Both the position numbers and the translations under genes were made by a program. The notes under the pieces were generated by a model, which worked only from the letters and a program-made list of their open reading frames with translations, was not told where the DNA came from and did no database searches. Shown here piece after piece: positions 10,466-29,833 of a DNA stretch of 64,000 bases. How positions within the stretch are numbered: the first letter of the stretch is position 1; the number at the start of each line of letters is the position of its first letter. The DNA lies in assembly GCA_017483195.1 (NCBI GenBank), contig JAFULR010000005.1:34749-98748 (forward strand), given 5' to 3'. Origin of the DNA: Clostridia bacterium (lineage in GTDB: Bacteria; Bacillota; Clostridia; Oscillospirales; CAG-272).

Positions 10466-11449
10466 TCAACACCCCAGCAACACCTGATCGTACTGATAGA
10501 GCACCTCGTTGACCTCGTGAATGTCTTTATACTTCCCTGTTTTAACGAAATATTCGATAATTACATCGAACTTGCTTGAACGCGAGAGGCACATCCCTGC
10601 GGTTGAAAGCAAATGCTCGGTCTCTTCAAGACTGAGATGGAGTCCGATCGCAAAGCTCACCGCCGTGATCTTTGATGGAGTGTAATTCTTCGTGCATTTG
10701 ATTTTTGAAAACACCTTTCGACTCACGTTCGAGCGCTTGTATGCCTCAACGTCGGTCATTCCCTTTTTGTCTATGTAATCAAAAAGCGTGTCGCTGAAAC
10801 CCTTGTCGAGATTATCAAAGTAATCATCTAAAGAACTACTCTCCATTGAGCAACACTTAGAAAAAGCTATTGAACAATCAGCGCCCTTAGGATCAAGCCA
10901 ACCTTCGTCCTCATCTTCTTGATTGTAAACTCTCTCAATATAACTATCGAGCTCACTTTTCAATGATTGACTGATCTCATAGGAATCAACATCGTACACA
11001 ACGAGATAAACGTTCATCTCGTGCTTCATCAAAAAGTCGCTGATCGTCGCGGTTGCAATCTTCAACACTTTGTCCTTCGGATAGCCGTAAGTGCCCGACG
11101 CAATAAGCGGAAATGCTACACTACGGCACTTGTTATCCCATGCAAGCTCAAGCGCTTCAAGATAGCAGGAGCGAAGCAAAACGCGTTCCCCGCCAAGTCC
11201 GCCACGCCACACGGGACCTGCCACGTGGATGACGAACTTGCAGTTCTCCATCGCATACGCGGGTGTTAACACCGCCTCGCCAACTGAGAGCGAGCCAATC
11301 TCCGCACAACGAGCATCCATCTGCTCCTCCGCCGCCTCGCGTATCAGCGCATCCACGCCACCGCCACCGGACAACCATCTGTCCGTCGGATTCACTATCG
11401 CATCGCACTTTATTTTGGTTATGTCTTGTCTGATTATTTGAAGTGGCAT
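10466..11449 (-). CDS. Macrodomain protein with C-terminal helical domain
   Basis: A 327-aa protein. Residues 1-~170 form a macrodomain that binds or hydrolyses ADP-ribose derivatives: VNPTDRWLSGGGGVD carries the substrate loop, and the PLIASGTYGYP loop contacts the phosphates. Residues ~215-327 form a helical domain (MTDVEAYKRSNVSRKVFSKI onward) that looks like an HTH-type module often fused to signalling domains in Firmicutes. The start has a good SD (AAAGGAG). The operon order is ParB-like, macro, nuclease. Likely roles are removing ADP-ribose or sensing an ADP-ribose-type signal. Confidence 0.9.
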   Translation of the reverse strand: MPLQIIRQDITKIKCDAIVNPTDRWLSGGGGVDALIREAAEEQMDARCAEIGSLSVGEAVLTPAYAMENCKFVIHVAGPVWRGGLGGERVLLRSCYLEALELAWDNKCRSVAFPLIASGTYGYPKDKVLKIATATISDFLMKHEMNVYLVVYDVDSYEISQSLKSELDSYIERVYNQEDEDEGWLDPKGADCSIAFSKCCSMESSSLDDYFDNLDKGFSDTLFDYIDKKGMTDVEAYKRSNVSRKVFSKIKCTKNYTPSKITAVSFAIGLHLSLEETEHLLSTAGMCLSRSSKFDVIIEYFVKTGKYKDIHEVNEVLYQYDQVLLGC

Positions 11450-11459
11450 AATTACTCCT

Positions 11460-12167
11460 TTATTTAATAGTCAATATGTTGTTTTCTATGCAATAATCAA
11501 TGCCCATTTTAATCTCATTTCCATTTTCTTTTTTCAATGTTACGCACATCAAATCGGCAGCTATCACTACTCCGATCTCACCAGACGAAAACCTTACAAT
11601 GTTCCCTGGCGTTCTAAGTGCATTATCAAGCTTATTACCTGCACCATCATCTATTTTGGCAGCTATGGATTTCAAACCCAATTTACGTGCTGTATAATAA
11701 CGCAAATACTTGCCTTTCAAATAGTATTGTTTGTTGTCACAAGATACATAAATAGGTCTATCCAATTCTCCGTGATCTTCATAGTACTTCACCATATCTT
11801 CCACTTTTTTTGTATTCGGTGCTTTGAAGGAAGCGTTATCAACGTAAATATCCTCAAAATTAATATATCTCGTGCCTTTAAAATCAAGTTTAGGTTTTAT
11901 AGGGCAACACTTAACCACTCTACTTGCTTCTGTTACAACGGTACTTGATTTAGAGGATACAACTTTTCTCCTCTCATTGGGAAATCTAACTGTATCCACA
12001 TCATATATATCGCAATAAGTAGACTCGCTACACCGTCTTGTCTTTGCCACACAGTAACTGTCTTCTTTGCGATAGTATCTGCATTTTCGTTTATCTCTTT
12101 TAGGAAGATCATCGTTCTTTTTCAAAACTTGAATAACTTTATTTCCCCAGTTTCCTGTCTTCGGCAT
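11460..12167 (-). CDS. Hypothetical protein with Cys-rich N-terminus and ParB-like core
   Basis: A 235-aa protein. The N-terminal 60 residues contain several Cys (CRYYRK...YCVAKTRRCSESTYC), possibly binding a metal. Residues ~125-175 (YEDHGELDRPIYVS, then LKGKYLRYYTARKLGL) resemble the ParB/sulfiredoxin N-terminal fold, which binds nucleotides in some families. The C-terminus is a small beta domain. The start has the SD GGAGTATG. It is the first gene of the macro/nuclease operon. The ParB likeness is tentative. Confidence 0.7.
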   Translation of the reverse strand: MPKTGNWGNKVIQVLKKNDDLPKRDKRKCRYYRKEDSYCVAKTRRCSESTYCDIYDVDTVRFPNERRKVVSSKSSTVVTEASRVVKCCPIKPKLDFKGTRYINFEDIYVDNASFKAPNTKKVEDMVKYYEDHGELDRPIYVSCDNKQYYLKGKYLRYYTARKLGLKSIAAKIDDGAGNKLDNALRTPGNIVRFSSGEIGVVIAADLMCVTLKKENGNEIKMGIDYCIENNILTIK

Positions 12168-12274
12168 ATCATACTCCTATAGTCTTTTTTTAATTATATC
12201 ACCATATATCAAAAATTGCAACCTGTTGGATAAATTTGATGAAAGGTGTAGCTGAATGACGACAGAAAAAGATA

Positions 12275-12295
12275 CGCACCCTAATTCAGGGTGCG
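12275..12295 (-). terminator. Terminator ending the type III R-M operon
   Basis: CGCACCCT pairs AGGGTGCG with a short AATTC loop; on the - strand it is followed by TATCTTTTTC. It lies 22 bp after the small ORF that closes the operon. Confidence 0.8.
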
Positions 12296-12316
12296 CAATT
12301 AAATATATTCTTACTA

Positions 12317-12643
12317 TTAGATTCTTGATATGCCCAAATAGCCAATTTCCTTTATAGCTTTTTTGATTCCTATAGATATAGTTGTATACATAGCTGATCC
12401 AATCAGGGCCTTATGTTGCTTAGGTTTGTATATTAATCCTGTTAAAAAATATGAAATAATATGTATAATCTTTTCAAGTATTGTATTTATTATTTTACCT
12501 AATACCTTACCGAACACACCAAATATTTCTAAAAATTCAGTAGGATTAGGAGAAAAATGGCTTCTAAGGAATCTGCCAGCTTTTTTCGTGCTTTTATAGC
12601 CTAAGAACCTATTATTAGTCCTTGTTTTTTTGTTCTTTCTAAT
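12317..12643 (-). CDS. Small hydrophobic protein with apparent ATT start, after res
   Basis: The frame is open for 108 codons from an ATT codon at 12643, placed 7 nt after a strong SD (GGAGGG) that begins 4 nt after the res stop codon. No ATG is in frame near the SD; a GTG at 12517 lacks one. The product has a basic N-terminus (RKNKKTRTNNR) and an amphipathic/hydrophobic centre (IINTILEKIIHIISYFL). Either ATT is used as a rare start or an ATG has mutated. A terminator follows. No family is recognised; position suggests a small membrane-associated accessory of the R-M operon. Confidence 0.5.
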   Translation of the reverse strand: MRKNKKTRTNNRFLGYKSTKKAGRFLRSHFSPNPTEFLEIFGVFGKVLGKIINTILEKIIHIISYFLTGLIYKPKQHKALIGSAMYTTISIGIKKAIKEIGYLGISRI

Positions 12644-12663
12644 TTTTGTTCCCTCCTTTCTAA

Positions 12664-15600
12664 TTACTTAATATTACTCATAATACTTAGCAAGCTCTGA
12701 TAACTATCAACGTCGTGATACCTAACCTTGCTTGAAGAAATCTCATTAAAGAGCTTCTTAGCACAAGAAATCTTTGCTTGCTCAATGGGTTTAAGTTGCA
12801 GTGACTCCATTGTTCCTTTCGTCTCTGCAATAAAGTAGATGTGTTTTACTGTGCCTTCATTGAAAGCTATTGCCCAGTCGGGCGAATAGTTTCCTACCGG
12901 TGTCGGGATATGGAATCCTTTTGGAAGCTTCGCGTAAACACAAACCTCCTCTGCAGCATCCAAATCCTCGACAAACCTACGCTCGCCACTCATACCATCA
13001 GTAGCGTAACCGTCGGTAAACACATAGTCCTGAATGGACTTCTTTGCCAGGAAAGCCTTTTCGAAGCTGTGACCTGTCTTTTCAGCAGTGAAAATGTCAC
13101 TATCGTATGTGCCGCCTGTCTCATCATAAGAAATGTGCTCAACAATCATTGTCGCCTTCTGCTCATTGATAAGCTTAATCACCTTCGATATGAACTCTTC
13201 GGGATTAAACTTAAACTTGTAGAACTGCTTGGGCTCAATTCCTTCAAGAATCTTCGCTACCGTTCTACGCGTCAGCTTCGTACCTTCTGCAACCTTACCA
13301 ATAAGGTCATAGGACACTTTGCTGTGTTGAGCATTTCTTAACGTTTGGGTACGTGTCTTGGCGGTTTTAAAACCGTCACCACGTTCAATTTCATGCTCGG
13401 TAAGCTCACTTTTCTGAGAACCTACCGAAGTAGTGTATTGCAACTCAGTAACAAATAGCTTAGTATTGATATGATTTATTGACTTTCTGATAAGCTCGTC
13501 GCTATCAAAGTCAACCCTATACGCATACTGACGGTTGATAAGTTTCCAAAGAGTCTGGAACTCTTTCTTATAGAAGTTCTCGTTCAAAGGATTCTCCTTG
13601 ATCTTTGTTTCATGACCGTTGGTAAACATATCGTCAAGAACGCTTTCATCAAATACGGCTTGTACAAGCTTATGAATTCCTTCACTCATAGGTGCAAGTT
13701 GTGGCGGCAACGGTACCAAAGTTCCATTTGCAAGATCGTTACGATACTTATCTGTAATCTTTCTGTCCATATAGTCAGCATAACCATTTGCGATAAGGTA
13801 GCCCTCAATAATATTTGCGGCTTTATCATCAATCTGCGTGGGAATGCCATCAACCTTAACATACTTGCCTTTGAAGTAATCACTGGTAGCTGCAAGAGGT
13901 CTGTCATAGAGCATTTCTTTGATGTCCTTCTGCAAGTCGGATACAAAGTTCTTGTAGCTCTCATTTGCGATAACTGTAAGCACGTTGATGTCATGCACAA
14001 CTTCGCCTACCGTTTCGTTATCCATTCTGTTACCGGTACTATCAACGCAAAGACGAAGACCGCGTCCTACTTCTTGACGTTTAGCGGTCGTACTGTCAGT
14101 ATGACGGAGCGTACAGATTTGGAATACATTGGGGTTATCCCAACCCTCTCTTAAAGCCGAGTGCGAGAAAATAAATCTCGTTGGTTCATCAAACGAAAGC
14201 AAACGTTCTTTGTTTTTCAAAATAAGATCGTAAGCGGAAATATCGTCAGAAACTGCACCCTCTTTAACGCGTGCTGCTTCTTTACCGTCTTTGGCGTTGT
14301 TTACGCTTCTTCCGGTCTTCTTATCAATACTGAAATATCCTCTGTGTACTGCATGCGGATCATCGCAAACAGAACGCAAATATCTTTGATAAGGTGTGTC
14401 TATGAGAGTGAGATTATCGTTCAGAATACTAAGATACTCTTCTTCAAATATCTTACCGTATTCACCAAGAACCTCGTCACCGTTTTCATCGTACTGACGG
14501 TATTTTGCAACCTCATCAATGAAGAACAAAGACAGAGTCTTGATACCCTTATTATAGTTCTTTTCCTCTTTCTCAAAGTGCGAAAGAATAGTTTCACGAA
14601 TCTGAATACGACGCATATCCTGCTCGGATACGTCACCCACAACGTTGTTTGCGTAGATTACTTCACCATTAGTAAACGTTACGCAGTTGTGTAAAGGATC
14701 GATCTCGGAAATAACGTATCCCTTGTATTGTTCCATATTCTTGGATTCAACGTAAAGATTATCACCAACATCAAAAATTCTGGTTTCACGGTTAATACTC
14801 TTGTTGTATCCGATTTCAAGTTCAATCTTAGCTCTCGGAGGATGCTTGGGCGAAACGATTATACGCTCAAGGTAGAGGTACTTATCGGTTCCACGGAAGT
14901 TCTTAACCTCAAAGCCCTTGACCTCAATTTTCTTTACAAGACGCTTGTTAAAAGCATCAAGTGCATCAAGCACGTACACAAGATTATGCTGTGTTCTGTG
15001 CGTTGCAGAATAATTGATTGTAAAAAGCGGATTAAAGTTTTGAAGTGCCTTTTGAGTAACTTCACCACCCATTTTTTGAGGCTCGTCCAAGATGATAATA
15101 GGTCTATTTGCCTTAATTACATCAATAGGACGACGCGATGCGAACTCATCGCGCTTGGAGTAAATAATCAGCTGTTCTTTAGTCTTCTTCTTTCCATCCT
15201 CTGAGAAAGAACGTGCAAATGCCTGCGTGTTAATAATCATAACGTTAATGCTTGAACTTGATGAAAAGCTATCAAGCTCTTTCAAGTCGGCACTATTATA
15301 TACGAAGAACCTTGCCTTTTTGCCATAGTGCTCCATAAAGTGATCCGTTGTAATCTCAAATGACTTTTTTACACCCTCACGGATAGCAATGGACGGAACA
15401 ACCACGATAAACTTACTCCAACCGTAACGCTTATTCAGCTCGAACATTGTCTTTATGTACACATAAGTTTTGCCTGTGCCGGTTTCCATCTCTACGTCAA
15501 GAGAACATTTGCCAAGATGACCCTCGAGCTGCTTTGATTGTTTTATATTATTTTCATTTTGAAGCTGCTGAATATTGGCAAGAAGCTGAGCGTCGGTGAG

Positions 15601-15801
15601 GTTAATTTCCTCATTTTTATATCCGCTATCGCCAATAATATCATCTTCTATATCCGCAACCGATACCTGTGCTTTTGTTGACTTTTTACCAATGTCACGA
15701 ATGTAGCTTACGCTATCATGCATTCCTTGACCGTTAAAAACTCTGACTACAGCATCTACAGCATCTGTTTGATATTGTTGTATTTTAAATTTGAATTTCA
15801 C
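12664..15801 (-). CDS. res: Type III restriction enzyme, Res subunit
   Basis: A 1045-aa ATP-dependent restriction subunit that translocates or slides on DNA and cuts unmodified DNA together with Mod. It shows Walker A METGTGKT (105-112), the Walker B variant ILDEPQKM (about 237-244), motif III SATHR, motif VI GRGLRLCV, and a C-terminal PD-(D/E)XK nuclease: SPDWAIAF with IAETKG near residues 970-993. It starts with GTG 15801, overlapping the membrane gene by 4 nt. Length and motif order are typical, so it looks intact. Unusually, a membrane protein gene separates it from mod. Confidence 0.95.
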   Translation of the reverse strand: MKFKFKIQQYQTDAVDAVVRVFNGQGMHDSVSYIRDIGKKSTKAQVSVADIEDDIIGDSGYKNEEINLTDAQLLANIQQLQNENNIKQSKQLEGHLGKCSLDVEMETGTGKTYVYIKTMFELNKRYGWSKFIVVVPSIAIREGVKKSFEITTDHFMEHYGKKARFFVYNSADLKELDSFSSSSSINVMIINTQAFARSFSEDGKKKTKEQLIIYSKRDEFASRRPIDVIKANRPIIILDEPQKMGGEVTQKALQNFNPLFTINYSATHRTQHNLVYVLDALDAFNKRLVKKIEVKGFEVKNFRGTDKYLYLERIIVSPKHPPRAKIELEIGYNKSINRETRIFDVGDNLYVESKNMEQYKGYVISEIDPLHNCVTFTNGEVIYANNVVGDVSEQDMRRIQIRETILSHFEKEEKNYNKGIKTLSLFFIDEVAKYRQYDENGDEVLGEYGKIFEEEYLSILNDNLTLIDTPYQRYLRSVCDDPHAVHRGYFSIDKKTGRSVNNAKDGKEAARVKEGAVSDDISAYDLILKNKERLLSFDEPTRFIFSHSALREGWDNPNVFQICTLRHTDSTTAKRQEVGRGLRLCVDSTGNRMDNETVGEVVHDINVLTVIANESYKNFVSDLQKDIKEMLYDRPLAATSDYFKGKYVKVDGIPTQIDDKAANIIEGYLIANGYADYMDRKITDKYRNDLANGTLVPLPPQLAPMSEGIHKLVQAVFDESVLDDMFTNGHETKIKENPLNENFYKKEFQTLWKLINRQYAYRVDFDSDELIRKSINHINTKLFVTELQYTTSVGSQKSELTEHEIERGDGFKTAKTRTQTLRNAQHSKVSYDLIGKVAEGTKLTRRTVAKILEGIEPKQFYKFKFNPEEFISKVIKLINEQKATMIVEHISYDETGGTYDSDIFTAEKTGHSFEKAFLAKKSIQDYVFTDGYATDGMSGERRFVEDLDAAEEVCVYAKLPKGFHIPTPVGNYSPDWAIAFNEGTVKHIYFIAETKGTMESLQLKPIEQAKISCAKKLFNEISSSKVRYHDVDSYQSLLSIMSNIK

Positions 15802-16196
15802 TTATTATCATCCCCCTTTTCTTGAGAAATGTAATAATCCATTATGTTTTTGTTGGATTTGTCAATGCTTTTTTGAGATATCTCCATTTGACGCACTATC
15901 AAAAAAACAATAGTAATAACAGTAACATTTACAAATAAAATCCAAAATAGTGAAGACAAATACTTTACCATAGTAAACGCATCTTCTCCAGACCATTTCA
16001 AAAACAAATCTTGTATATTGTTACTTAGCAAAAATGTTAATAGAATTCCAAAAACAAAGGTTGAAAAACTAATATATATTGAATAAATAGATGTTAATAC
16101 ATCTGCTTTTTTTCCGAAAACCTTTTTGGAAAATAATCCACAAATGATGCTTGCAACTATCGAAGCAGCAACGCCTATTAAAAAGTCCAAAATCAT
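15798..16196 (-). CDS. Small membrane protein between mod and res
   Basis: A 132-aa protein with about three membrane segments (residues 1-22, ~40-62 and ~82-104) and a charged C-terminal tail likely in the cytoplasm. Its ATG overlaps the mod stop by one base (TAATG) and its stop overlaps the res GTG by 4 nt, so the three genes are tightly coupled. Membrane proteins are not part of standard type III systems. It could tether the complex at the envelope, act as an effector that depolarises the membrane, or serve as a checkpoint. No family is recognised. Confidence 0.8.
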   Translation of the reverse strand: MILDFLIGVAASIVASIICGLFSKKVFGKKADVLTSIYSIYISFSTFVFGILLTFLLSNNIQDLFLKWSGEDAFTMVKYLSSLFWILFVNVTVITIVFLIVRQMEISQKSIDKSNKNIMDYYISQEKGDDNK

Positions 16197-18148
16197 TACA
16201 GCACCTTTCTTTCTGTATCAGGGCTGTACGTAGCGAAGATCTGCTCAAAGTTGGTTGCTACGCTATCGTTTGCCATGGAGCTGTCACGCATAACGAAATA
16301 GTACGGCTTCTTCTTTGCAATAGCGGTGATGGTTTCCTCGCTGACGTTGCTATCGAAGCAAGCGTACAGGAAGCCATCGGCAACGTTGAATACCTTTTTG
16401 CCGGCGATAATCTCTTTCTCAATCTTGCTGGAGAGCAGCACGCCGAGGTCGAGCATGACCTGGAAAAGAAGATCTTCTGGCGTTCTGTCCTCTTTGATGT
16501 TGTCGGAGAGCATATCAAACATGTTTATTTCGTACTCGTCGGGAGTATAATAAACGTCCTTCATGTTAGAAGAATCCAGCTTGAGCACACGGAAGCCGGT
16601 ATCAAGGTTCTGAGCCATCATGCCGTTTTCTTCTTTGATCTTTGCACCGGCACGACGAATACGCTCCTTGCCAATTTCGCAAATAGTCCTATATCCTTGC
16701 TTATATGCAGGGGTCTTTTCTGCAATTGTTTCCGGAAGCTGTACCATAATAAATTTTCTATATAAGCTATCCTCAACATTCAATTGCATTACTGCATGAG
16801 CCGTTGTTGCAGAACCAGAGAAAAAGTCAAGAATAATATCATCATCGTTTTTGCAAAGCGTGCTGATAATTCTTTTTGCAACATAAACGGGTTTTGGATT
16901 ATCAAACGGCATCCCCATAGCATCATCGCTACCGCCAAAATACAACAAAGACGCAACTGCTTCTTCCATGTTGTCTTTTAAGAAGTATTTTTGTCTCGGT
17001 TGAGTGTTTTCATCAGCACCAAACTCGATTTTGTCTAAGGCTAACAGCTCATCCATCTTCTTATCCGTAAATCTCCAGCCTTTCTCGGGGACAGGACAAG
17101 GTTTATTTGTAATAGGATGAATCAACGGTCTATGAGAACGGGTTTCGGGCTTATCAGGAGCCGCCATGGAAACCGGCTGATATATTTTTCCTTGAGAATC
17201 AATCAAAGAATATGCACTTTCTCCACCAGAAAGCGACGACTTATTGTTTTTGATCCACTCTTTATATTCCATTCGAACTTTTTCGTTGACCGTTCCATAT
17301 TTTTTAATCAAAGATTCAACCTTTGAAATCATTTCGTCGGCATGCTCCTTTTTCTTCAAAAAAGGAACCGTGGCAAAAACGGAAATGTTTTTACAAAATA
17401 CAAGTATAGACTCATGTTGATATGCGACACCAGCAACTACACCTTTGGGGTTTCTCTTGTCCCAAACAATTGTGCCAAGTTCATTTTGAGCACCAAAAAT
17501 TTCTTTGCATACTGCCTGCATAGTATAGACTTCATTTTCATCTATATGAATGAATATCGCACCATCATCAGCAAGCAAGTCCTTCGCCAGTTTCAATCTC
17601 GGATAAATCATATTCAGCCAATCGGTATGGAAGCGACCATTACTTTCAGTGTTGGTGAAAAGTCTGTTACCGTCTTCATCGAGCTGACCACTATGTACAA
17701 GATATTCTTCAAGACTTTCAGAAAAATTATCTTTGTAAATAAAATCAACAGATGTATTATAGGGCGGGTCGATGTAGATCATCTTGATCTTGCCAAGATA
17801 GGTCTCCTGCAAGAGCTTGAGCACGGCAAGGTTGTCACCCTCAATATAGAGGTTCTGCGTGGTATCAAAGTCAACGCTCTCCTCTCTGCAAGGACGGAGC
17901 GTATCGCTAATAGGAGCGTTGGCCGCCAGGATGGACTTCTTCTTATCGGGCCAAGTGAACTGATAGCGTTCCTCTTTGCCTTCCACCACAACAGAGGAAA
18001 GCTCCTGCTTCAGCATATCAAAATCAATGGCGTACTCCAGCTCACCCGCGTCGTTCTTCCTTTCGGTCACGCAGTTCGGGAACAGAGCTCCAATCTTCTT
18101 TATATTGTCGTCCACTTTATTAAGACTGTGCATTTTCAGTTTGTCCAT
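16196..18148 (-). CDS. mod: Type III DNA adenine methyltransferase, Mod subunit
   Basis: A 650-aa N6-adenine methyltransferase of the beta class: the catalytic motif DPPYNTS (127-133) precedes the SAM-binding motif DFFSGSATTAHAV (441-453), with the target-recognition region between. Mod methylates one strand of an asymmetric site and supplies specificity to Res. ATG 18148 has the SD GGAGGAC. Its first 29 nt overlap the upstream RES-domain gene. It appears complete. The recognition sequence cannot be read from the protein. Confidence 0.96.
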   Translation of the reverse strand: MDKLKMHSLNKVDDNIKKIGALFPNCVTERKNDAGELEYAIDFDMLKQELSSVVVEGKEERYQFTWPDKKKSILAANAPISDTLRPCREESVDFDTTQNLYIEGDNLAVLKLLQETYLGKIKMIYIDPPYNTSVDFIYKDNFSESLEEYLVHSGQLDEDGNRLFTNTESNGRFHTDWLNMIYPRLKLAKDLLADDGAIFIHIDENEVYTMQAVCKEIFGAQNELGTIVWDKRNPKGVVAGVAYQHESILVFCKNISVFATVPFLKKKEHADEMISKVESLIKKYGTVNEKVRMEYKEWIKNNKSSLSGGESAYSLIDSQGKIYQPVSMAAPDKPETRSHRPLIHPITNKPCPVPEKGWRFTDKKMDELLALDKIEFGADENTQPRQKYFLKDNMEEAVASLLYFGGSDDAMGMPFDNPKPVYVAKRIISTLCKNDDDIILDFFSGSATTAHAVMQLNVEDSLYRKFIMVQLPETIAEKTPAYKQGYRTICEIGKERIRRAGAKIKEENGMMAQNLDTGFRVLKLDSSNMKDVYYTPDEYEINMFDMLSDNIKEDRTPEDLLFQVMLDLGVLLSSKIEKEIIAGKKVFNVADGFLYACFDSNVSEETITAIAKKKPYYFVMRDSSMANDSVATNFEQIFATYSPDTERKVL

Positions 18149-19133
18149 TTTTATCGTCCTCCGTCATTTTTGAGTTATCATTTGATGGGATCTCGTTTTT
18201 TTGTGCCTGAATTATTCCATAAATGTGAGCTTTTTTTGTTTGTATAGCATCTGCACTCAAATCAGGAATAGGTTTTGTTGATATTATTTTCTCTGCAGAA
18301 AAATCTATAAAATTAAGCTGTTGAGAATGTAACTGTAATATTTTGCTGCTAAAAAACACGATAGTATCCATAGAGCAATTAAAAATAACGTAATTATTAT
18401 TATTTGTAAAATGACTTTTATAACAAATACCATCGACACCATGCTTGCGAATTTCATCACTAATGAATTGAGTTATGTGATATTGTTTCGGGTCACTAAC
18501 TGGTGTAGTAAAACATTTTGCAATATAGTATTGATACCAATCGGGCAAAGATGATATCTCTAAGATTTCTTTTTCTTCAAATTGTATCATCTTTAGGTCT
18601 CGATTAATTGTAAATAAAGCTAATGAAATGTAATCTCCTATATTAGCTTTTATTTCACTTGCGGCAGTCGGTCCATTATCTGAACAATAAAAATATGATG
18701 AATATTGTCTATTGGCCCTCCCGTCAGAAGCAATACCCAAAGGTGGCTCCTTGGAATTGATCCAATCATATCCTTTCAAAAACTCACCTTCAAAATGAAT
18801 GCCCTTTTTGCAATCATAAATATCATTTATATCATTTATAATTCTTGCTCGATAAACCTTGGTGCCTTTCTTTATTTCAACAATATTTTTGTCGCTACAT
18901 AGGTTGTCGATTGATTTAAAGACAACCGAATTATATGCTTTTTCATAGTTTCTGTTTTCAAAGTCGGAAACAAACTCAGAAAAGTATATATTAGCTATAA
19001 CTTGTCCCCATATTTTTGCAATTTGCTCCGCACTTTTAACAAGGTTATCAGAAATATCATCTAAGCCTATGAGTTTTAAATCCGAAGGATCAATGCCATA
19101 TTTTTCAAGAATTTCTTTAGTTGTCTGATTCAT
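18120..19133 (-). CDS. RES-domain protein (NAD+-degrading fold) within the R-M operon
   Basis: A 337-aa protein. Residues ~85-275 match the RES fold: Arg in KVYRARI (about 93-99), the RANRQYSSYFYCS segment, Glu160 in TAASEI, and a later Ser-containing helix before GVDGICY. RES proteins of toxin-antitoxin systems hydrolyse or phosphorolyse NAD+. The N-terminal 85 residues are helical and specific to this protein. It overlaps mod by 29 nt and DUF4391 by 4 nt, so it is built into the operon. No typical Xre antitoxin pair is adjacent, which suggests control by the R-M complex instead. Family call fairly sure; role inferred. Confidence 0.75.
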   Translation of the reverse strand: MNQTTKEILEKYGIDPSDLKLIGLDDISDNLVKSAEQIAKIWGQVIANIYFSEFVSDFENRNYEKAYNSVVFKSIDNLCSDKNIVEIKKGTKVYRARIINDINDIYDCKKGIHFEGEFLKGYDWINSKEPPLGIASDGRANRQYSSYFYCSDNGPTAASEIKANIGDYISLALFTINRDLKMIQFEEKEILEISSLPDWYQYYIAKCFTTPVSDPKQYHITQFISDEIRKHGVDGICYKSHFTNNNNYVIFNCSMDTIVFFSSKILQLHSQQLNFIDFSAEKIISTKPIPDLSADAIQTKKAHIYGIIQAQKNEIPSNDNSKMTEDDKNGQTENAQS

Positions 19134-19735
19134 ATTACACCTTCTAAGCTTTTGAGTTTGTTAATTTTTTCTACCAGCTCAAACTTTTTCTTCGGCTGCT
19201 TTTCCTTACGTGCAAGAGCATCAAGACGTTCAATTTCCTTTAGGATTTGACTTTTCTTTTCATCGTGAGCGATTTGCTCTTCCAAAGAATGTTCTCCCTC
19301 AACCTCAATATTGCCAATTTGGATAACCAAGTTATCCCAAACGTCATCCATATTCAGTCCTTTAAGGAAAAGCTTACAATCATCCGCGGGCATCCACTCA
19401 CTTTGGATGAGTTTAGTATGATATACTGCAAGGCGGCGTTCCGAGGCGCATTCCAATAATAAAACCATACTTTGATTTATAAGTTTATTTATTTGTGCTA
19501 TCGTAGCTTCCTTGTAATCCTTGTGCTTCAAGGAAACAAGTAAAACGTAAATAGCAGGAACGTTGTCCCCTGCCGCAATAGTTGTTGTCGCAGGAGAAAT
19601 TTCAGAGACGATAGTGATCCTCGATATATCTGCGTCAAACTTGTCCTTGGCAGCAGTATTCATATTAAATTTTAAATATATTGCCTTTTTGGGCAACTGC
19701 TTTGACAACTCTGTGGATTTTGGTAAACCGAGCAT
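19130..19735 (-). CDS. DUF4391 family protein
   Basis: A protein of about 201 residues matching DUF4391 as I remember it: it opens MLGLPKSTELSKQLPK, then VYVLLVSLK-type strands and a Lys/Glu-rich C-terminal coiled coil. The family is found beside helicase and type III methyltransferase genes; its biochemical role is unknown to me. ATG 19735 is preferred to GTG 19738 for SD spacing (GGAGGAATAGTG). It overlaps the RES gene by 4 nt (ATGA). Confidence 0.75.
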   Translation of the reverse strand: MLGLPKSTELSKQLPKKAIYLKFNMNTAAKDKFDADISRITIVSEISPATTTIAAGDNVPAIYVLLVSLKHKDYKEATIAQINKLINQSMVLLLECASERRLAVYHTKLIQSEWMPADDCKLFLKGLNMDDVWDNLVIQIGNIEVEGEHSLEEQIAHDEKKSQILKEIERLDALARKEKQPKKKFELVEKINKLKSLEGVI

Positions 19736-19754
19736 CACTATTCCTCCTTTTTGA

Positions 19755-22700
19755 TCAAATTTTTATAATTTCACAAGGGATACTTGCCTCCTTAGCACGC
19801 TGAATCATATCGGCAGTACCGGGTGATCTGCCGTCCCAGAACACAATTACAGCATCGGCCCTTTCAGCCATCTTCTTATTGCGTATGGGACCCGCAGCAG
19901 AATCGTATTTATTCCAATTTGCCGGATAATGTTCAACCTTTAATCCGTGCTTCGATGCATATGCAAGTCCCATAGCATCTGCTCCGCGAGCATCTCCACA
20001 CAATATGGTTACGTTGTACTTATCAATCTTATCTGCAAGATACTTTTCCAAAGTATCGGATACAAAATTATAGTTATTAAAGTATCTTGTGCCTGCAACA
20101 ACAAGTCTAAAGTCCTTCTTAATGCTTTGTGCGTTTTTATTATCCTGTACTACTAAGAAACAGACAAGCTCAAAATCATCAAGCCCTTGGATTTGATTTG
20201 ATAAGAAGCTTACCTGTGAACCACCGAGAAAGCTGTCAATATCGCTTTCCTCTTTTACTTCAATAATAGAAGAAATGGCTTCACCAAGCAATTTGGAATA
20301 CTTAGTCATCTCTTTTCCGTCTTTAGTTTCCCTATTGAATGGTTTGTATGCTTTTGCAATTGGTTCATTACTTCCCTTGCAAAGATATCTCATTTTATCA
20401 AGCATATCCTTTGGCGCAAGGTGGTTACAAACAACTTGTCCATCATTTTGGATGTACACCATATAAAACGGATGGAGTCTGTTTTGATTATCAATATTTA
20501 CAGAGTTAGAACGGTTTTTTAGAACATATATCACACCCGCGGGTGTTTCATCATTCGCAGGAACTACGGAATGCAAACCAAATGGAGCTTTGTCCACATT
20601 TGAATGATTCTTAACGTATTCCAACAAGTCAAGACGAAACTCGTTAAGTCCAAGATCCATGATGGATATTCCACTTGACATTTCTTCGATGTCCACAACC
20701 TCTTCCTGCAAGCGTTTCAACTGTGCCTTGCGGTATTCAAGGTCTGTCTTTTCGTCCTCACTGATAAGGTTTTCATCGCCCGTAGCGGCCATATTAACTA
20801 TCTTCATACGAGTTTCGACCTTAGCTTTAAGGTCAATATACTCATCCAAGGAAACGTCAGGCCAAAAGTTTACAAGCTGAATAACCGTATTCTTGGAACC
20901 AATACGGTCAATACGTCCAAATCGCTGAATAATACGCACCGGATTCCAATGTATATCGTAGTTAATAAGATAGTCGCAGTCCTGCAAGTTTTGACCTTCT
21001 GAAATACAGTCGGTAGCAATCAAAACATCAATCTCCGTCTTATCGCCTGGCATAAGGAGTTCTTTATCCTTAGATATGGGTGAAAAGCACGTAAGCACAG
21101 TGTTCAAGTCATTACGTATATTAGCCGTTGTTCTGCCATCAACTGAGCCCGTAATCATAGCGGTATGAAGCCCAAACTTTGTTTTCACAAATAGACTTAT
21201 ATTTTCAAATAGATATTTAGCTGTATCCGCAAAAGCAGTGAAAATAATCACTTTCTTATTTCCTGCGTTAATAGGATTACTAATTTTATTTGCAAGCGTT
21301 TTTATCAACTCTTGAAGCTTGCTGTCATGTTCAGGCGTGATATCAGAAACCATAAGAGTAATAAGATCTAAAACTTCCTTATCCTTTACGAGTGTTCTTT
21401 TCCATGACACGTAATCCATATCGGCAAGTTCAATTTTAACCTTTTTACCAAACGAGAACAGATCGTCATTCATATCCTCGCTATCGAATTCATCGATATT
21501 ACTTATGTCTGTTAAAGTTAACTCTGCGGGTGCGATGGCATCATATTTATTGATTGTATCAATAGTAGTAGCAATTAATTGACTAATTCTTTGAAGCGTC
21601 AAACTGAAAGCATATACAGAGCTTTCCATACGTTTCATAAGGTTTATAGCCATAAGTCTTCTGATACCTTGCTCACGGTTTTTCTGCGTAAAACCAACAC
21701 TGACCTTGCTATCATCGTATAGCTCAGCATATTTATCGACTTTGCTTGGCAAAATAAAGTGAGAAGGTGTATATATAGAAAGCGTCAGAAGCATTAACTG
21801 CTCAAATATTTCGTTATAGTTAATTGCTTTTTTGAGGTCTGTAAGAGGTGGTCTCACAGAAACCGGGGGCAACCTCGTTGGGAACGTTCCGATATCAGCA
21901 GTATCATAATACTTTTGAATATGCTTTCTGGAACGTGCGATGGTTACCGAGTCAAGAACTTCAAAAAAGTCAAAATCGAGCATTTTAAGAAGGTTTTCCG
22001 TTATTCTATCTTCAGGCTCAAATTTACTCCAGTTTGTAAACGCTCTTTGAGCATTGCGGAAAATATCATCAATAGAACGGCTCGTATTAAGCTTACTATC
22101 AATAAGAGAGGAATCTCCTTCATAAGCAAGGGCAAGCTGATTTTTAAGATCGTTAAATCTATTATTTACAGGCGTTGCTGAAAGCATAAGAACCTTTGTC
22201 TTTACACCCTTACGTATAACTTTATTAAGAAGTCTAAGGTATCTATTCTCCTTTTCGTCCTCGCCACCCGTTAACTTACCGCCATTGCGGAAATTGTGCG
22301 ATTCATCTATGACTATAAGGTCATAGTTGCCCCAATTCAAACGGTCAAGATCAAGACCGTTTGAAAGGCCGTGTGTTCTTGACAAGTCAGTATGATAAAG
22401 TACGTCATAACGAAGCCTATCGCAAGCAATAGGGTTATTTACGTAATTGTCTTTATATGTATTCCAGTTATTAGTAAGTTTCTTTGGACAAAGAACGAGC
22501 ACAGACTTGTTCTTATTTTCATAATACTTTATAACAGCCAAAGCTGTAAAGGTTTTACCAAGACCAACAGAGTCAGCCAAGATACATCCATTGTATTTTT
22601 CGAGTTTATTAATAATTGCAAGAGCAGCATCTTTTTGGAAAATATAGAGCATGTTCCAAATCTTACTTTCTTTGAAACCCGTAGCTTCGTTAGGAAGAAC

Positions 22701-23375
22701 GTCTTCGGAAATATCCTCTAAAAACTCATTGAAGATATTATATAGAGTTACGAAATATATGAATTCAGGAGAGTTTTCATTATATGCGGCCGATATACTT
22801 TCAATAAGCTCGTCTGTCACATCTTGCAATATTTTCTTATTATTCCAAATTTCATCAAATTTATCAATATAAAAACGACTGTTTTCTGATGATGTTGTCT
22901 TTACAATGGCAGAGAACATATTATTGCCGCGTTCACATCCCAAATCTACGGTTGTAAATCCATTAATAGGCGAATAACTCGTTTCATCAACATTAATAAA
23001 GCCCATAAGATTATCTGCTGTGATATTGGACTTGAATGTAACCTTTTCTCTTATCCACTCAGCGCATTCTTTAGCAATCGCTTTTTGTGTCATCTCATTT
23101 CTAAGCTTGACCTCAAACTCTGTGCCATATATACTTTTTTCTCTATTGAGCCTTGGAATATAGAATTCTCTGCTTTCTCTTTTTGTAGAGTCGGTAATAA
23201 ATGTAGGAGACGTGAAAATAAAACGAAGTTCTTCAATATCTTCAAGCTCATTTTTTAATTCTTGAAAAGCATACATTGAAAAACACGCAGCAGCTATTGA
23301 TATCTTACTTCCCTTTTCAATAGTATAACTCAAATCATCTTTGAGGGTCTGATTAACATTATCTAAAAGCTTCAC
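19755..23375 (-). CDS. PLD-like/SNF2-type helicase with C-terminal SLOG (DUF2493-like) domain
   Basis: A 1206-aa protein. The N-terminal ~20-170 looks like the phospholipase-D-like module seen in related helicases. The SF2 helicase core has Walker A DSVGLGKT (268-275), DESH (about 357), SATPVNNR, and in the second RecA domain ATDCISEGQNLQ and RFGRIDRIGS. The last ~120 residues are a Rossmann-like domain: VVAGTR, GDARGADAMGLAYA, HYPANW, AAGPIRNKKM, DAVIVFWDG, close to the DUF2493/YspA branch of SLOG. SLOG domains bind nucleotide-type ligands. It starts with GTG behind GAGGGAT and follows the Xre gene by 10 bp. The fusion suggests a ligand-gated helicase. Confidence 0.9.
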   Translation of the reverse strand: MKLLDNVNQTLKDDLSYTIEKGSKISIAAACFSMYAFQELKNELEDIEELRFIFTSPTFITDSTKRESREFYIPRLNREKSIYGTEFEVKLRNEMTQKAIAKECAEWIREKVTFKSNITADNLMGFINVDETSYSPINGFTTVDLGCERGNNMFSAIVKTTSSENSRFYIDKFDEIWNNKKILQDVTDELIESISAAYNENSPEFIYFVTLYNIFNEFLEDISEDVLPNEATGFKESKIWNMLYIFQKDAALAIINKLEKYNGCILADSVGLGKTFTALAVIKYYENKNKSVLVLCPKKLTNNWNTYKDNYVNNPIACDRLRYDVLYHTDLSRTHGLSNGLDLDRLNWGNYDLIVIDESHNFRNGGKLTGGEDEKENRYLRLLNKVIRKGVKTKVLMLSATPVNNRFNDLKNQLALAYEGDSSLIDSKLNTSRSIDDIFRNAQRAFTNWSKFEPEDRITENLLKMLDFDFFEVLDSVTIARSRKHIQKYYDTADIGTFPTRLPPVSVRPPLTDLKKAINYNEIFEQLMLLTLSIYTPSHFILPSKVDKYAELYDDSKVSVGFTQKNREQGIRRLMAINLMKRMESSVYAFSLTLQRISQLIATTIDTINKYDAIAPAELTLTDISNIDEFDSEDMNDDLFSFGKKVKIELADMDYVSWKRTLVKDKEVLDLITLMVSDITPEHDSKLQELIKTLANKISNPINAGNKKVIIFTAFADTAKYLFENISLFVKTKFGLHTAMITGSVDGRTTANIRNDLNTVLTCFSPISKDKELLMPGDKTEIDVLIATDCISEGQNLQDCDYLINYDIHWNPVRIIQRFGRIDRIGSKNTVIQLVNFWPDVSLDEYIDLKAKVETRMKIVNMAATGDENLISEDEKTDLEYRKAQLKRLQEEVVDIEEMSSGISIMDLGLNEFRLDLLEYVKNHSNVDKAPFGLHSVVPANDETPAGVIYVLKNRSNSVNIDNQNRLHPFYMVYIQNDGQVVCNHLAPKDMLDKMRYLCKGSNEPIAKAYKPFNRETKDGKEMTKYSKLLGEAISSIIEVKEESDIDSFLGGSQVSFLSNQIQGLDDFELVCFLVVQDNKNAQSIKKDFRLVVAGTRYFNNYNFVSDTLEKYLADKIDKYNVTILCGDARGADAMGLAYASKHGLKVEHYPANWNKYDSAAGPIRNKKMAERADAVIVFWDGRSPGTADMIQRAKEASIPCEIIKI

Positions 23376-23385
23376 AATATATCCC

Positions 23386-23604
23386 TCACTCTGCTACGTT
23401 AGTGCCCGGTACCATTTCCATAATGTCACCCACATCGACCTGCAACGCATTGCATATTCTTGCAAGTACTTCAGTTGACACATTAACATCATTACCCATT
23501 TTTGCAATAGTTGCCTTGCTAACACCAGAAAGCTCTGCAAGATCCTTCTTTTTCATCTTGCGATCTATAAGTAATTTCCACAACTTGTTATAACAAACAG
23601 CCAT
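23386..23604 (-). CDS. Xre-family HTH regulator of the R-M operon
   Basis: A 72-aa Cro/CI-type repressor: the HTH lies at about residues 18-45 (KKKDLAELSGVSKATIAKM), ending with the usual ICNALQVDVGDIMEM helix. ATG 23604 is chosen because GAGAGGTG precedes it. It is the first gene of the operon and probably autoregulates it, like the controller (C) proteins that delay restriction until methylation is complete. A palindrome upstream is a candidate operator. Confidence 0.9.
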   Translation of the reverse strand: MAVCYNKLWKLLIDRKMKKKDLAELSGVSKATIAKMGNDVNVSTEVLARICNALQVDVGDIMEMVPGTNVAE

Positions 23605-24994: not shown

Positions 24995-25975
24995 TCAAAT
25001 CAACTTTCTTATGTAATTTTTATACTCCTCAACCGTCTCCTGCGGCGCAAGAAGTTTGACTTTATCGCCAAATGACGAGCACCAGCCGAAAAAGAGGTCG
25101 CTGACTTGCACGTTGACCGTGAAACGAACTGTGTTCTCTCCGCTTGTGACCATTTTTGTTTGCTCACCAAAGAGATCGAACACAGCATCAACGAGGGTTT
25201 TGTCGATATCAATAGTAACCGCGGTCGTTTCGCCGTTAAACATTCCGAAAAGCTGTTTTTTGTAGTTCGCAACGTCAAAATGCATCTCCTCGGGCGGCAG
25301 CTCAACATCCTTTGTCCACTCGATCTCAACCTTTTCCATACGATCGATACGATAGTTTGATATCTTGCCATACCGAGAGTCAAAAGTTACAAGATAGTAA
25401 TGACCGTCAGCAAAAACGGTCGCGATGGGATTTACAACATAGTGATGGTGCTCCCTTCTGTAAACCTTGCTGTGATTGACGTCATAATCAAAGTAATAGA
25501 AAATAATCTTTTTGCCCACGTTGATGGCGTTGATTATCGTGTCAACGTTGTAATAGATGCTCTCATTCGTATTCTTTTGATTATTGAACTTAACTATATT
25601 ATTCTGCAAAACAATTCCCTTTTGGCTGCCCGCAAGGTCAGCTATCTTTTTTATAAGCTCTGCACTCTTCTTCTCAGTGATAAAGGAAGCCGCCTGAACC
25701 GCGTCCATCAGAATATGTAATTCCGGCGCATCAAAGCTGCGATCTTCCACATAGTAGAGATTGCTTCTGCCCCTGCGCCACATGATCTCATAGCCGCACT
25801 CATTGAGCAGTTCAATGTCGGCATAAATGGTTGTTCTGTGAGAGTCAATACCAAATTCCAAGAGCTTTGCGCGAAGCTCCTCAGTACCCATTGGGTGATC
25901 CTCGTCGGTCTCCTTTTTGAGTATCTCGTATATCTTCAAGGGTCTTATTCTGTTGTATTTTTCGGTTGATTTCAT
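24995..25975 (-). CDS. WYL-domain transcriptional regulator
   Basis: A 326-aa regulator. Residues ~1-75 form an HTH_11-type winged helix (KIYEILKKETDEDHPMGTEE, then HRTTIYADIELL). Residues ~140-215 are the WYL ligand-sensing domain (IINAINVGKKIIFYYFDYD ... YRREHHHYVVNPIAT.FADGHYYLVTFD), followed by the C-terminal WCX extension. WYL proteins control many defence operons through nucleic-acid or nucleotide ligands. Its ATG overlaps the stop of the nuclease-fold gene (TAATG), so the two are coupled. It may regulate this island locally. Confidence 0.88.
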   Translation of the reverse strand: MKSTEKYNRIRPLKIYEILKKETDEDHPMGTEELRAKLLEFGIDSHRTTIYADIELLNECGYEIMWRRGRSNLYYVEDRSFDAPELHILMDAVQAASFITEKKSAELIKKIADLAGSQKGIVLQNNIVKFNNQKNTNESIYYNVDTIINAINVGKKIIFYYFDYDVNHSKVYRREHHHYVVNPIATVFADGHYYLVTFDSRYGKISNYRIDRMEKVEIEWTKDVELPPEEMHFDVANYKKQLFGMFNGETTAVTIDIDKTLVDAVFDLFGEQTKMVTSGENTVRFTVNVQVSDLFFGWCSSFGDKVKLLAPQETVEEYKNYIRKLI

Positions 25976-28006: not shown

Positions 28007-28031
28007 GAGTGGACAGCTGTCCACTCAATTT
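28007..28031 (-). terminator. Palindromic terminator after the AAA ATPase
   Basis: GAGTGGACAGCTGTCCACTC is a perfect 20-bp palindrome (28007-28026) overlapping the stop codon of the ATPase gene; on the - strand it runs into GATTTTTTATTT. Confidence 0.8.
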
Positions 28032-29833
28032 AGTAGGTCTTTGATTTTGATATTTGCATAATTACAAACGGCAATTATGTTCTCAAGCTTTGGACAGCGA
28101 AAATGATCACCGTTTCTGTTCCACGATTTAATCGTATCAACAGACACAAACAATTTAGATGCTGCCTCATCTAAATCCTTGGTTTGATTTCGAACAGCAT
28201 TATAGCATTTTCTGCCTATCTTAATAGGATCGCCTTGTGCATACATATCAAAAACTGTCTGAACATCAAAAATATCTTCTCCAACGATATTGGTCATTTG
28301 AGAAACAAGTTCTTGATTTGATGAAACGCAATTCACTTCCGTACCTTCTTCGGTCATTGTAACAAAATGCACACACTGCCATTCATCGGGAATCAAGTAC
28401 GGACTATGTGTGGAATACACCACTTTCACACCTCGTTTTGTCAACTCCATCAAATCGCAAAGCACCTCACGCTGTGCGCTTGGATGTAACATTGCAGCAG
28501 GCTCGTCGATAATAAAAATATCACCTTCACTCAGTATGTTTTTCATAAAGTAGTAAGTAAAATACCACCGTCTGCCTGCGCTTGTTTCGTTAAGATTGAT
28601 TCGCTCCCCGGTCTTTTCTTTTACGAAAATAGAGATGTGCCCTTTCTCGCCAGCCTGCACAGAAATACTATCGTACATTTCTCTATCGAACGAAGGAATA
28701 TTCTCGTTCAAAAACGCCTCAAAATCTGCAACCGCTTGATCTGAAAGAGTCAACTCATTTTTCGAAGATCTTAGCAGTTCTTCCCGATCACTTCCGTCAT
28801 ACACCTGTCGTAAATAGGTTTCCATTATGGAATTGGAATGATCATTATAATGGTAATTTCTGTCCTCTTTCCTGAAGATTACATCATTACTCTCGTTTTT
28901 CAAGAACAAGCATCTTTTTCCGATAATATGCTGAACATGGAACAAGAACGAGTAATAGTGCTCCTCCTGTTCTTGTCTTAGCATATGATCGGTATCCAAA
29001 CCTTCTTGGATGCGTTTTGTCCTATTCTCTATTTCTTTAATTAAGTAATCAATTCGATCACAGGCGTCTTTCGTTGCCTTGTTTATCTTTGTGATTTCTC
29101 TCTTAATCGCAGTTTTGTTGATTGATACGAATTTTTGCTCAAATTTAGCGAGAGAAGGTTCTACATATTCGAGTCTAAACGCTTCTCTTTCATTCCAGCC
29201 AAAATACAGGTGTGTTTCTGCAACAAATGTTAGAGCTGCCTCATCGTCCTCAAATGATTGCAACATACGATCGAGTACTTTACGCACATTTTCTATAAAA
29301 TGTTCCGCTTGCCAGTGTAATGCACTATAATTCGTCAGCCTGCCATTTGCATTTTTCAAATTATAACAATGAATTGGCAATTCCTCATATCCATCGTGAG
29401 ATGTTTTTATAAGTTGCTTTTCGTATAAATCGACTGCATCCTTTAACTGCAATGCCAAATCTCGAATATCTGCAATTTCTTTTCTGATTGATGAAACGAT
29501 ATATTCAGAGCGTACTCTGTCAATCTTCAGATAACTACCGCTGCTATAAGCAACTATCTCACATTTGTTTTTATCATAAACGACATCAGGCAGCATTGTT
29601 GCTACATCATCTTCACACAACCGAATGTATGCACGGTAAGTAAGCCGCTCTTTTTCTCTGTTTCCGTAGTAATGAGTGTTTGCCAAAGCAATTGCTGATA
29701 ATGCTTCCAAAACATTCGTTTTTCCACTACCGTTTTTACCGATCAAAACAGTCGGCAAGCCTTCTAAGAAAGAGATTGTCACAGGGGATTTTATAGATTT
29801 ATAATTTGATATTTCAATCTTGGTTAATCTCAT
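28025..29833 (-). CDS. AAA/RecF-OLD-type ATPase with C-terminal HTH
   Basis: A 602-aa ABC-like AAA ATPase. Walker A is IGKNGSGKTN (32-41); a long coiled-coil insertion occupies ~100-320; the signature-like LNETSAGRRWYF follows; Walker B is FIIDEPAAMLHP, and the switch His is STHSPYLIP. The last ~60 residues look like a helix-turn-helix (DLDEAASKLFVSVDTIKSW). No TOPRIM domain is evident, unlike OLD. Such ATPases pair with nucleases in anti-phage systems; the HNH gene follows. It starts with SD GGAG and an ATG. Confidence 0.85.
   Translation of the reverse strand: MRLTKIEISNYKSIKSPVTISFLEGLPTVLIGKNGSGKTNVLEALSAIALANTHYYGNREKERLTYRAYIRLCEDDVATMLPDVVYDKNKCEIVAYSSGSYLKIDRVRSEYIVSSIRKEIADIRDLALQLKDAVDLYEKQLIKTSHDGYEELPIHCYNLKNANGRLTNYSALHWQAEHFIENVRKVLDRMLQSFEDDEAALTFVAETHLYFGWNEREAFRLEYVEPSLAKFEQKFVSINKTAIKREITKINKATKDACDRIDYLIKEIENRTKRIQEGLDTDHMLRQEQEEHYYSFLFHVQHIIGKRCLFLKNESNDVIFRKEDRNYHYNDHSNSIMETYLRQVYDGSDREELLRSSKNELTLSDQAVADFEAFLNENIPSFDREMYDSISVQAGEKGHISIFVKEKTGERINLNETSAGRRWYFTYYFMKNILSEGDIFIIDEPAAMLHPSAQREVLCDLMELTKRGVKVVYSTHSPYLIPDEWQCVHFVTMTEEGTEVNCVSSNQELVSQMTNIVGEDIFDVQTVFDMYAQGDPIKIGRKCYNAVRNQTKDLDEAASKLFVSVDTIKSWNRNGDHFRCPKLENIIAVCNYANIKIKDLLN

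Follow-up and report, generated by a model that had tools for sequence, protein, structure and literature searches.

The window, a 64,000-nucleotide (nt) stretch of contig JAFULR010000005.1 from a Clostridia bacterium (assembly GCA_017483195.1), contains an operon that encodes an intact-looking type III restriction-modification (R-M) system with EcoP15I-like subunits, accompanied by a RES-domain protein and a small membrane protein. As judged by comparison with other genomes, it is well supported that four of the operon's genes, coding for a helicase, a DUF4391 protein, the methyltransferase Mod, and the restriction subunit Res, form a widespread scaffold, and that the RES and membrane genes are cargo in two slots, one between the DUF4391 gene and mod (slot A) and one between mod and res (slot B). 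We lean toward reading this locus as a platform of four constant genes with two junctions that hold exchangeable genes, in which, here, the RES protein, predicted to consume nicotinamide adenine dinucleotide (NAD+), and the predicted membrane protein would likely serve as a back-up once restriction has been overcome.

The operon comprises eight minus-strand genes, read from 23604 to 12317, and is closed by a strong terminator-like hairpin at 12297-12273. Its features are as follows (aa, amino acids; ORF, open reading frame).

23386..23604, minus strand: Xre-like regulator (HTH_26, Pfam E=2.5e-20), 72 aa, ATG start, head of the operon
19755..23375, minus strand: 1206-aa helicase of the Snf2 type; PLD-like region at the N-terminus, SLOG domain at the C-terminus (PADLOC HKD+Snf2; Pfam YAcAr)
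19130..19738, minus strand: DUF4391 protein, 202 aa, scaffold core (Pfam E=6.9e-35)
18120..19133, minus strand: RES protein, 337 aa, slot A cargo (Pfam RES E=1.5e-11; alignment; structure model)
18120..18148, minus strand: RES/mod overlap, 29 nt, at the RES C-terminal tail NGQTENAQS
16196..18148, minus strand: Mod, type III N6-adenine methyltransferase, 650 aa (Pfam; PADLOC MTase_III; EcoP15I Mod)
15798..16196, minus strand: membrane protein, 132 aa, slot B cargo (three hydrophobic helices by hydropathy)
12664..15801, minus strand: Res, type III restriction subunit, 1045 aa (RE_endonuc, ResIII; PADLOC REase_III; EcoP15I Res)
12317..12643, minus strand: small ORF at the end of the operon; 66 aa with a GTG start or a predicted 108 aa with an ATT start (ORF frame)
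12273..12297, minus strand: intrinsic terminator-like hairpin at the operon end, 11 pairs followed by a T run

ORF and Pfam analysis recovered all eight genes in the content and order given by an earlier, sequence-only reading of this DNA, with matches to HTH_26, SNF2/Helicase_C, YAcAr SLOG, DUF4391, RES, N6_N4_Mtase, ResIII, and RE_endonuc, each above the curated cut-off. The overlaps of 1 to 29 nt that it described are present among the central genes, at four junctions (DUF4391/RES, 4 nt; RES/Mod, 29 nt; Mod/membrane gene, 1 nt; membrane gene/Res, 4 nt), but the Xre/helicase and helicase/DUF4391 junctions are short gaps of 10 and 16 nt, respectively. The conservation of gene order that it proposed to look for is borne out for helicase-DUF4391-Mod-Res; because these four genes recur in identical order in distant genomes, the set is not just an accidental series of ORFs.

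The mod/res pair is related to a proven type III enzyme: Mod matches EcoP15I Mod (E=1e-77) and PADLOC MTase_III (770 bits), and Res matches EcoP15I Res (E=8.8e-68), PADLOC REase_III (951 bits), and the Pfam families RE_endonuc (E=6.3e-29) and ResIII. The PADLOC type III models cover both proteins over almost their full length, and Mod carries DPPY and FSGSATT stretches, recognized by eye. In the window the slot B gene sits between the two.

Genomes positive for DUF4391, counting the window's own, make up 7 of 295 in draws from its family, 15 of 295 from its order, 28 of 391 from its class, and 28 of 319 from its phylum. From 71 of the 73 positive genomes we collected 73 DUF4391 regions, leaving out G888 and G1226, which have weak partial matches; eight of the 74 loci lack the helicase and were dropped, so that 66 helicase loci remain, window included, and seven loci seeded with RES (L054-L060) are excluded from the scaffold counts. 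Contig ends, split genes, or a different order make 23 of the 66 loci not intact, and the other 43, among them the window, carry helicase, DUF4391, Mod, and Res once each, arranged in this order on the same strand. Counting a slot as occupied when the gap is at least 250 nt, slot A is filled in 22 of the 43 intact scaffolds and slot B in 15, with both filled in 13 and neither in 19; in these 19 empty scaffolds the junctions measure -14 to +118 nt. On the helicase tree slot A changes state 10 times and slot B 11 times, below the means of 14.7 and 12.6 for shuffled labels; occupancy is therefore partly inherited, though it changes often. The scaffold order also occurs on annotated plasmids of Leuconostoc kimchii, Escherichia coli, and Aeromonas media, and the helicase is found by tblastn in 122 plasmid records, archaeal ones included.

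To survey slot contents, 30 of the 70 cargo ORFs outside the window were compared with Pfam and 20 with PADLOC, picked by size and look; Pfam was also run on one additional L043 protein past the last scaffold gene (31 in all). Because the ORFs were not chosen at random, the frequencies of cargo families are lower bounds. The following were identified.

L063 and the window: RES
L027, L080: TIR protein related to ThsB, PDC-S66
L079: SIR2 with HerA
L022, L025: DUF2971
L048, and by homology L080, L082, L083: RhuM
L046: DUF1016/YhcG nuclease; YhcG-like by homology in L067
L086: Bro-Fic
L043: Bro-N
L093: GajA-like ATPase
L083, slot A: PrrC/PDC-S06-like ATPase (PADLOC PrrC model weak, PDC-S06 better)
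L087: Schlafen AlbA_2
L086: trypsin-like protein

Many further cargo proteins bear no family name. The RES family occurs in 2 of the 66 helicase loci, and NAD-consuming families are found in at least 5 of them (RES 2, TIR 2, SIR2-HerA 1), or 4 of 65 without the window; used as queries against all 1006 ORFs in the 74 loci, these proteins recovered no further relatives, and ThsB-like TIR proteins were seen in L027 and L080 only among the 20 cargo proteins compared with PADLOC. By a simple hydropathy scan, 11 loci, window included, have cargo predicted to contain one or more membrane helices (HerA of L079 omitted as a likely false positive). L063 likewise pairs a RES with a membrane protein, each in the slot that the other takes in the window, and its mod is split into two ORFs. 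Since its RES is only 25% identical to that of the window, it looks like an independent recruitment. The sequence-only reading had taken the RES and membrane genes as parts of a restriction operon; this stands insofar as genes of suicidal-type defence recur in the scaffold and L063 has both kinds, but the two genes behave as exchangeable cargo and not as fixed parts.

The turnover of cargo is visible between closely similar scaffolds. L063 and L066 belong to different genera, and their helicases are 95% and their Res proteins 96% identical, with zero slot genes in common. L089 and L091, from different families, share 94.9% identity over 6 kb up to the end of DUF4391; beyond that point the cargo in slot A and the central part of Mod differ, after which identity returns to 94.7% over 7.3 kb. 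The central part of Mod is presumably the place of the target-recognition part. What is exchanged is therefore the cargo and the central part of Mod, and such near-identical scaffolds across genera and families show that the locus has been transferred and that specificity and cargo have been recombined.

A further trace of this arrangement is preserved in the cargo reading frames themselves. The last nine codons and stop of the window RES gene, specifying the tail NGQTENAQS, overlie the start of mod (ATGGACAAACTG...) in another frame, and similar ends occur in unrelated slot A genes, namely those for the L064 membrane protein (NGQTQDAQR, 29 nt), the L027 DUF6680 protein (NGEAQNANSK, 32 nt), and the L080 TIR protein (NG, 8 nt). 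C-terminal tails were used as a stand-in for the gene context of the 72 close RES homologues found in the protein collection, the window's own cluster included. The mod-overlap tail is present in 14 of the 72, compared with 1 of 120 listed DUF4391 relatives (4694 found) and 0 of 38 homologues of the membrane protein; it occurs in 14 of the 1006 locus ORFs, and 8 of those 14 lie directly before mod. We take this to indicate, indirectly, that a mod gene follows at least 13 of the other RES genes; the tails of the remaining 58 homologues neither back nor exclude such a position. The finding that the sequence-only reading named as refuting it, a lack of these genes in every homologous locus, does not hold for RES, which is present in L063 and for which 13 of 71 other homologues have the pre-mod tail. 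For the membrane gene, which has no relative in the 73 other loci, the sole sign of a shared context is a tail common to at least 21 of its 38 homologues.

The diversity and fast turnover of the cargo, together with the 19 empty scaffolds, would also fit slots that are merely permissive insertion sites, in which cargo rides a well-transcribed mobile operon with no functional tie to restriction. Consistent with this, slot A of L061 contains an ORF on the opposite strand, mod itself is split by two opposite-strand ORFs in L047, and no same-strand ORF of 120 aa lies in the occupied A slots of L065 and L071. The slot B gap of L030 has none on the same strand either. However, insertions fall at two exact junctions and seldom between helicase and DUF4391, where just 4 of 43 scaffolds have a junction of 250 nt or more. 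The cargo is mostly on the same strand and tightly coupled, with several unrelated genes ending within the start of mod, and defence families are abundant in it. Occupancy of the two slots is also correlated (odds ratio 13.7, p 0.001, uncorrected for relatedness). We regard purely permissive slots as a serious but rather unlikely explanation.

R95, R139, Y149, E160, S240, and N247 are invariant in all 30 aligned RES proteins and correspond to the active-site residues of NatT, the matching to NatT numbers being by order and spacing. The structure model has its best PDB matches in MbcT, an NAD+ phosphorylase, and NatT, from which the window RES differs in its greater length, with helical extensions at the N- and C-terminus, in its R-M context, and in having no paired antitoxin that could be found in the genome. 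NatT is likewise an NAD+ phosphorylase (PMC11535050). From its modeled likeness to MbcT and NatT in fold and active-site residues, RES is predicted to have an ADP-ribosyltransferase (ART)/RES fold and to consume NAD+, by phosphorolysis as in NatT or by hydrolysis; the NAD+-degrading fold ascribed to it earlier thus agrees with the alignment, the model, and Pfam.

Outside the scaffold, RES genes are found in other settings. Profile matches occur in 4 of 295 family genomes and 13 of 391 class genomes, the window's own genome being in both counts. No operon protein except RES lies within about 1.5 kb in the 16 loci around the other profile matches, nor at 15-20 kb in seven of seven loci viewed at that range; in the family and class draws, RES genes lie outside this scaffold. 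Scans of genome contigs and viral contigs gave pattern matches and no confirmed relative, and plasmids and phages contain distant RES proteins only (9 and 1 records, best query coverage 63%). Neither the window RES and membrane protein nor the L063 RES matches a PADLOC model at E 0.001. In five of the RES loci (L009, L010, L011, L014, L017) a RES gene of about 360 aa adjoins a same-strand gene of about 300-320 aa as a recurring pair; the partner has no Pfam family in the single case scanned (L059, same genome as L011).

The membrane protein is not assigned to any family by PADLOC or, at the curated cut-off, by Pfam. Its 38 homologues are uniform in size, with 37 measuring 120-134 aa, and at least 21 end in K[EG]xDNK (30 tails listed); in the window this tail region shares its DNA with the ribosome-binding region and the beginning of res. 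Beyond res, the frame of the small ORF is open from GTG 12517 (66 aa) up to ATT 12643, 20 nt past Res. Because ATT 12643 follows a strong Shine-Dalgarno sequence, we predict a start at this rare codon and a 108-aa product with hydrophobic stretches. The small ORF has no Pfam match at all and no homologue in the 73 other loci.

In the mechanism that we propose, RES would be kept silent through contact with the R-M proteins and not by a dedicated antitoxin, a step that we infer because no antitoxin is in sight. Inhibition by a phage, or disruption of the R-M complex, would free RES, as happens to PrrC in EcoprrI; the freed enzyme would deplete NAD+, and the infected cell would stop. The membrane protein could serve as another effector or as an anchor in the membrane. 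Two observations weigh against this proposal: RES is rare in the scaffold, and part of the cargo is not obviously lethal.

A PADLOC HKD+Snf2 model (440 bits) spans helicase residues 3-1077, and a YAcAr SLOG domain follows at residues of about 1090-1206 (Pfam E=1.6e-13). By eye, the distant scaffold L076 has HGKAYI, and no HxK is found at that site in the window helicase and five listed relatives. As the HxK of the HKD motif thus seems to be missing from the window helicase and those close to it, the PLD-like part probably lacks nuclease activity. Only four scaffold helicases carry SLOG (the window, L021, L027, L030), scattered on the helicase tree (4 changes), and two of these loci have an NAD-consuming gene in slot A, RES in the window and the ThsB-like TIR in L027. 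RES, or the TIR of L027, might therefore make an NAD-derived nucleotide that SLOG senses, with the helicase or the membrane protein as effector, as in Thoeris. Against this, the association is 1 of 3 versus 3 of 62 when the window, through which it was ascertained, is excluded (p 0.18); L080 (TIR) and L063 (RES) show no SLOG, and L021 and L030 have SLOG with other cargo. We consider it improbable. No ThsA or ThsB model is among the PADLOC matches listed for nine window proteins (the best 25 of 29 for Mod and the best 25 of 41 for the helicase). One could also combine the two ideas, such that exchangeable effectors are under the guard of the R-M core and, in the SLOG version, a RES or TIR nucleotide read by the helicase SLOG turns failed restriction into a signal driving the helicase or membrane protein to end the infection; as the association is weak without the window, this is a bold case only, and a long shot. 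The structure model of DUF4391 (pLDDT 85.6) is an alpha/beta domain with two long C-terminal helices and has no clear PDB match.

That a canonical RES-Xre toxin-antitoxin module landed in the operon, with its Xre as the antitoxin, is very improbable: RES and an Xre-type gene do share one operon, but the typical partner of RES toxins is a DUF2384 (MbcA/ParS-type) antitoxin (PMC3482391), and this domain (PF09722) has no match in the window's genome, which is 88.6% complete and in which the RES neighbourhood itself is complete, whereas the operon Xre matches only HTH families in Pfam, sits more than 4 kb from RES, and has Xre-like counterparts at the head of scaffolds without RES, such as L023 (both slots empty), L024, and L048. 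Given the missing MbcA/ParS-type domain and the presence of Xre at the head of RES-free scaffolds, the genome sequence argues that RES here is not a standard RES-Xre module.

The back-up reading has precedents, since defence genes that lie inside operons of R-M and related systems are already known, among them PrrC, DarTG2, and the BREX back-up effectors. LlaFI of Lactococcus itself has, we believe, the four-gene order of the scaffold, and its relatives in Leuconostoc LkipL4701 and E. coli pLAO18 are helicase-DUF4391-methyltransferase-helicase loci with empty slots; Aeromonas pE31A has both slots filled with genes other than the window's. A preprint by Payne et al. reportedly describes "guilt by embedding", in which defence genes are nested between genes of other immune systems, and the PADLOC PDC-S families seen in the slots presumably resemble its embedded set. 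In EcoprrI, inhibition of the R-M enzyme by phage Stp activates the embedded suicide enzyme PrrC (PMC12707154). The window is similar in that a putative suicide gene is embedded in an R-M locus (type Ic for EcoprrI), with RES placed between DUF4391 and mod, but it differs in its type III scaffold, helicase, DUF4391, two slots, and exchangeable cargo, in a predicted loss of NAD+ instead of tRNA cleavage, and in that the guard step is here our own inference. The RRDM island of enteropathogenic E. coli (EPEC) has the RptR repressor and DarTG2 embedded between hsdS and hsdR (PMC12255303). It differs in its type I R-M system and in a toxin that brings its own antitoxin. DarT, moreover, modifies DNA rather than depleting NAD+. 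BREX and BREX-related loci hold diverse auxiliary or suicidal effectors inside their core loci (PMC12839542); those in the accessible portion are nucleases, whereas the window-type scaffold is a type III R-M system and takes NAD-consuming families too. In the literature searched, which did not extend to preprints and most subscription journals, we saw no description of a RES enzyme in a type III operon or of the two-slot scaffold.

Should the back-up reading be correct, a common class of type III systems, with helicase and DUF4391, would double as a docking platform for suicide genes, taking NAD-consuming proteins of no fewer than three unrelated kinds, and the guardian principle of PrrC would extend to NAD+ depletion. 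The DUF4391/mod and mod/res junctions would then provide a genomic rule for locating new effectors and membrane partners, and the silencing of such effectors by type III enzymes would be directly testable.

Genes flanking the operon were considered as part of the system and rejected. At E 1e-5, the 73 other loci contain no relative of the macrodomain protein, the ADP-ribosylglycohydrolase, the VWA protein, the small ORF, or any of seven more; the sole flanking gene with relatives, near three scaffolds (L067, L071, L025), encodes a WYL-domain regulator upstream (24995-25975). The macrodomain protein (10466-11449) and the ADP-ribosylglycohydrolase (5694-6635) lie beyond the operon terminator. 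Such proteins act on ADP-ribose products in other systems, and a role for the macrodomain was entertained, as the product of NatT is ADP-ribose-1''-phosphate, but it was dropped because the gene is behind the terminator and does not accompany the scaffold in other loci. In the Aeromonas plasmid locus (L105), an ADP-ribosylglycohydrolase is annotated about 4 kb upstream of the scaffold genes. A cysteine-rich protein is encoded directly after the window's operon (11460-12167). Two 90-aa proteins encoded between helicase and DUF4391 (L030:10349-10621 and L066:14348-14617) are relatives of one another and have, by eye, a similar cysteine pattern; phmmer finds no link between them and the window protein. 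Upstream of the operon, an AAA_15/AAA_21-type ATPase of 602 aa is encoded at 28025-29833.

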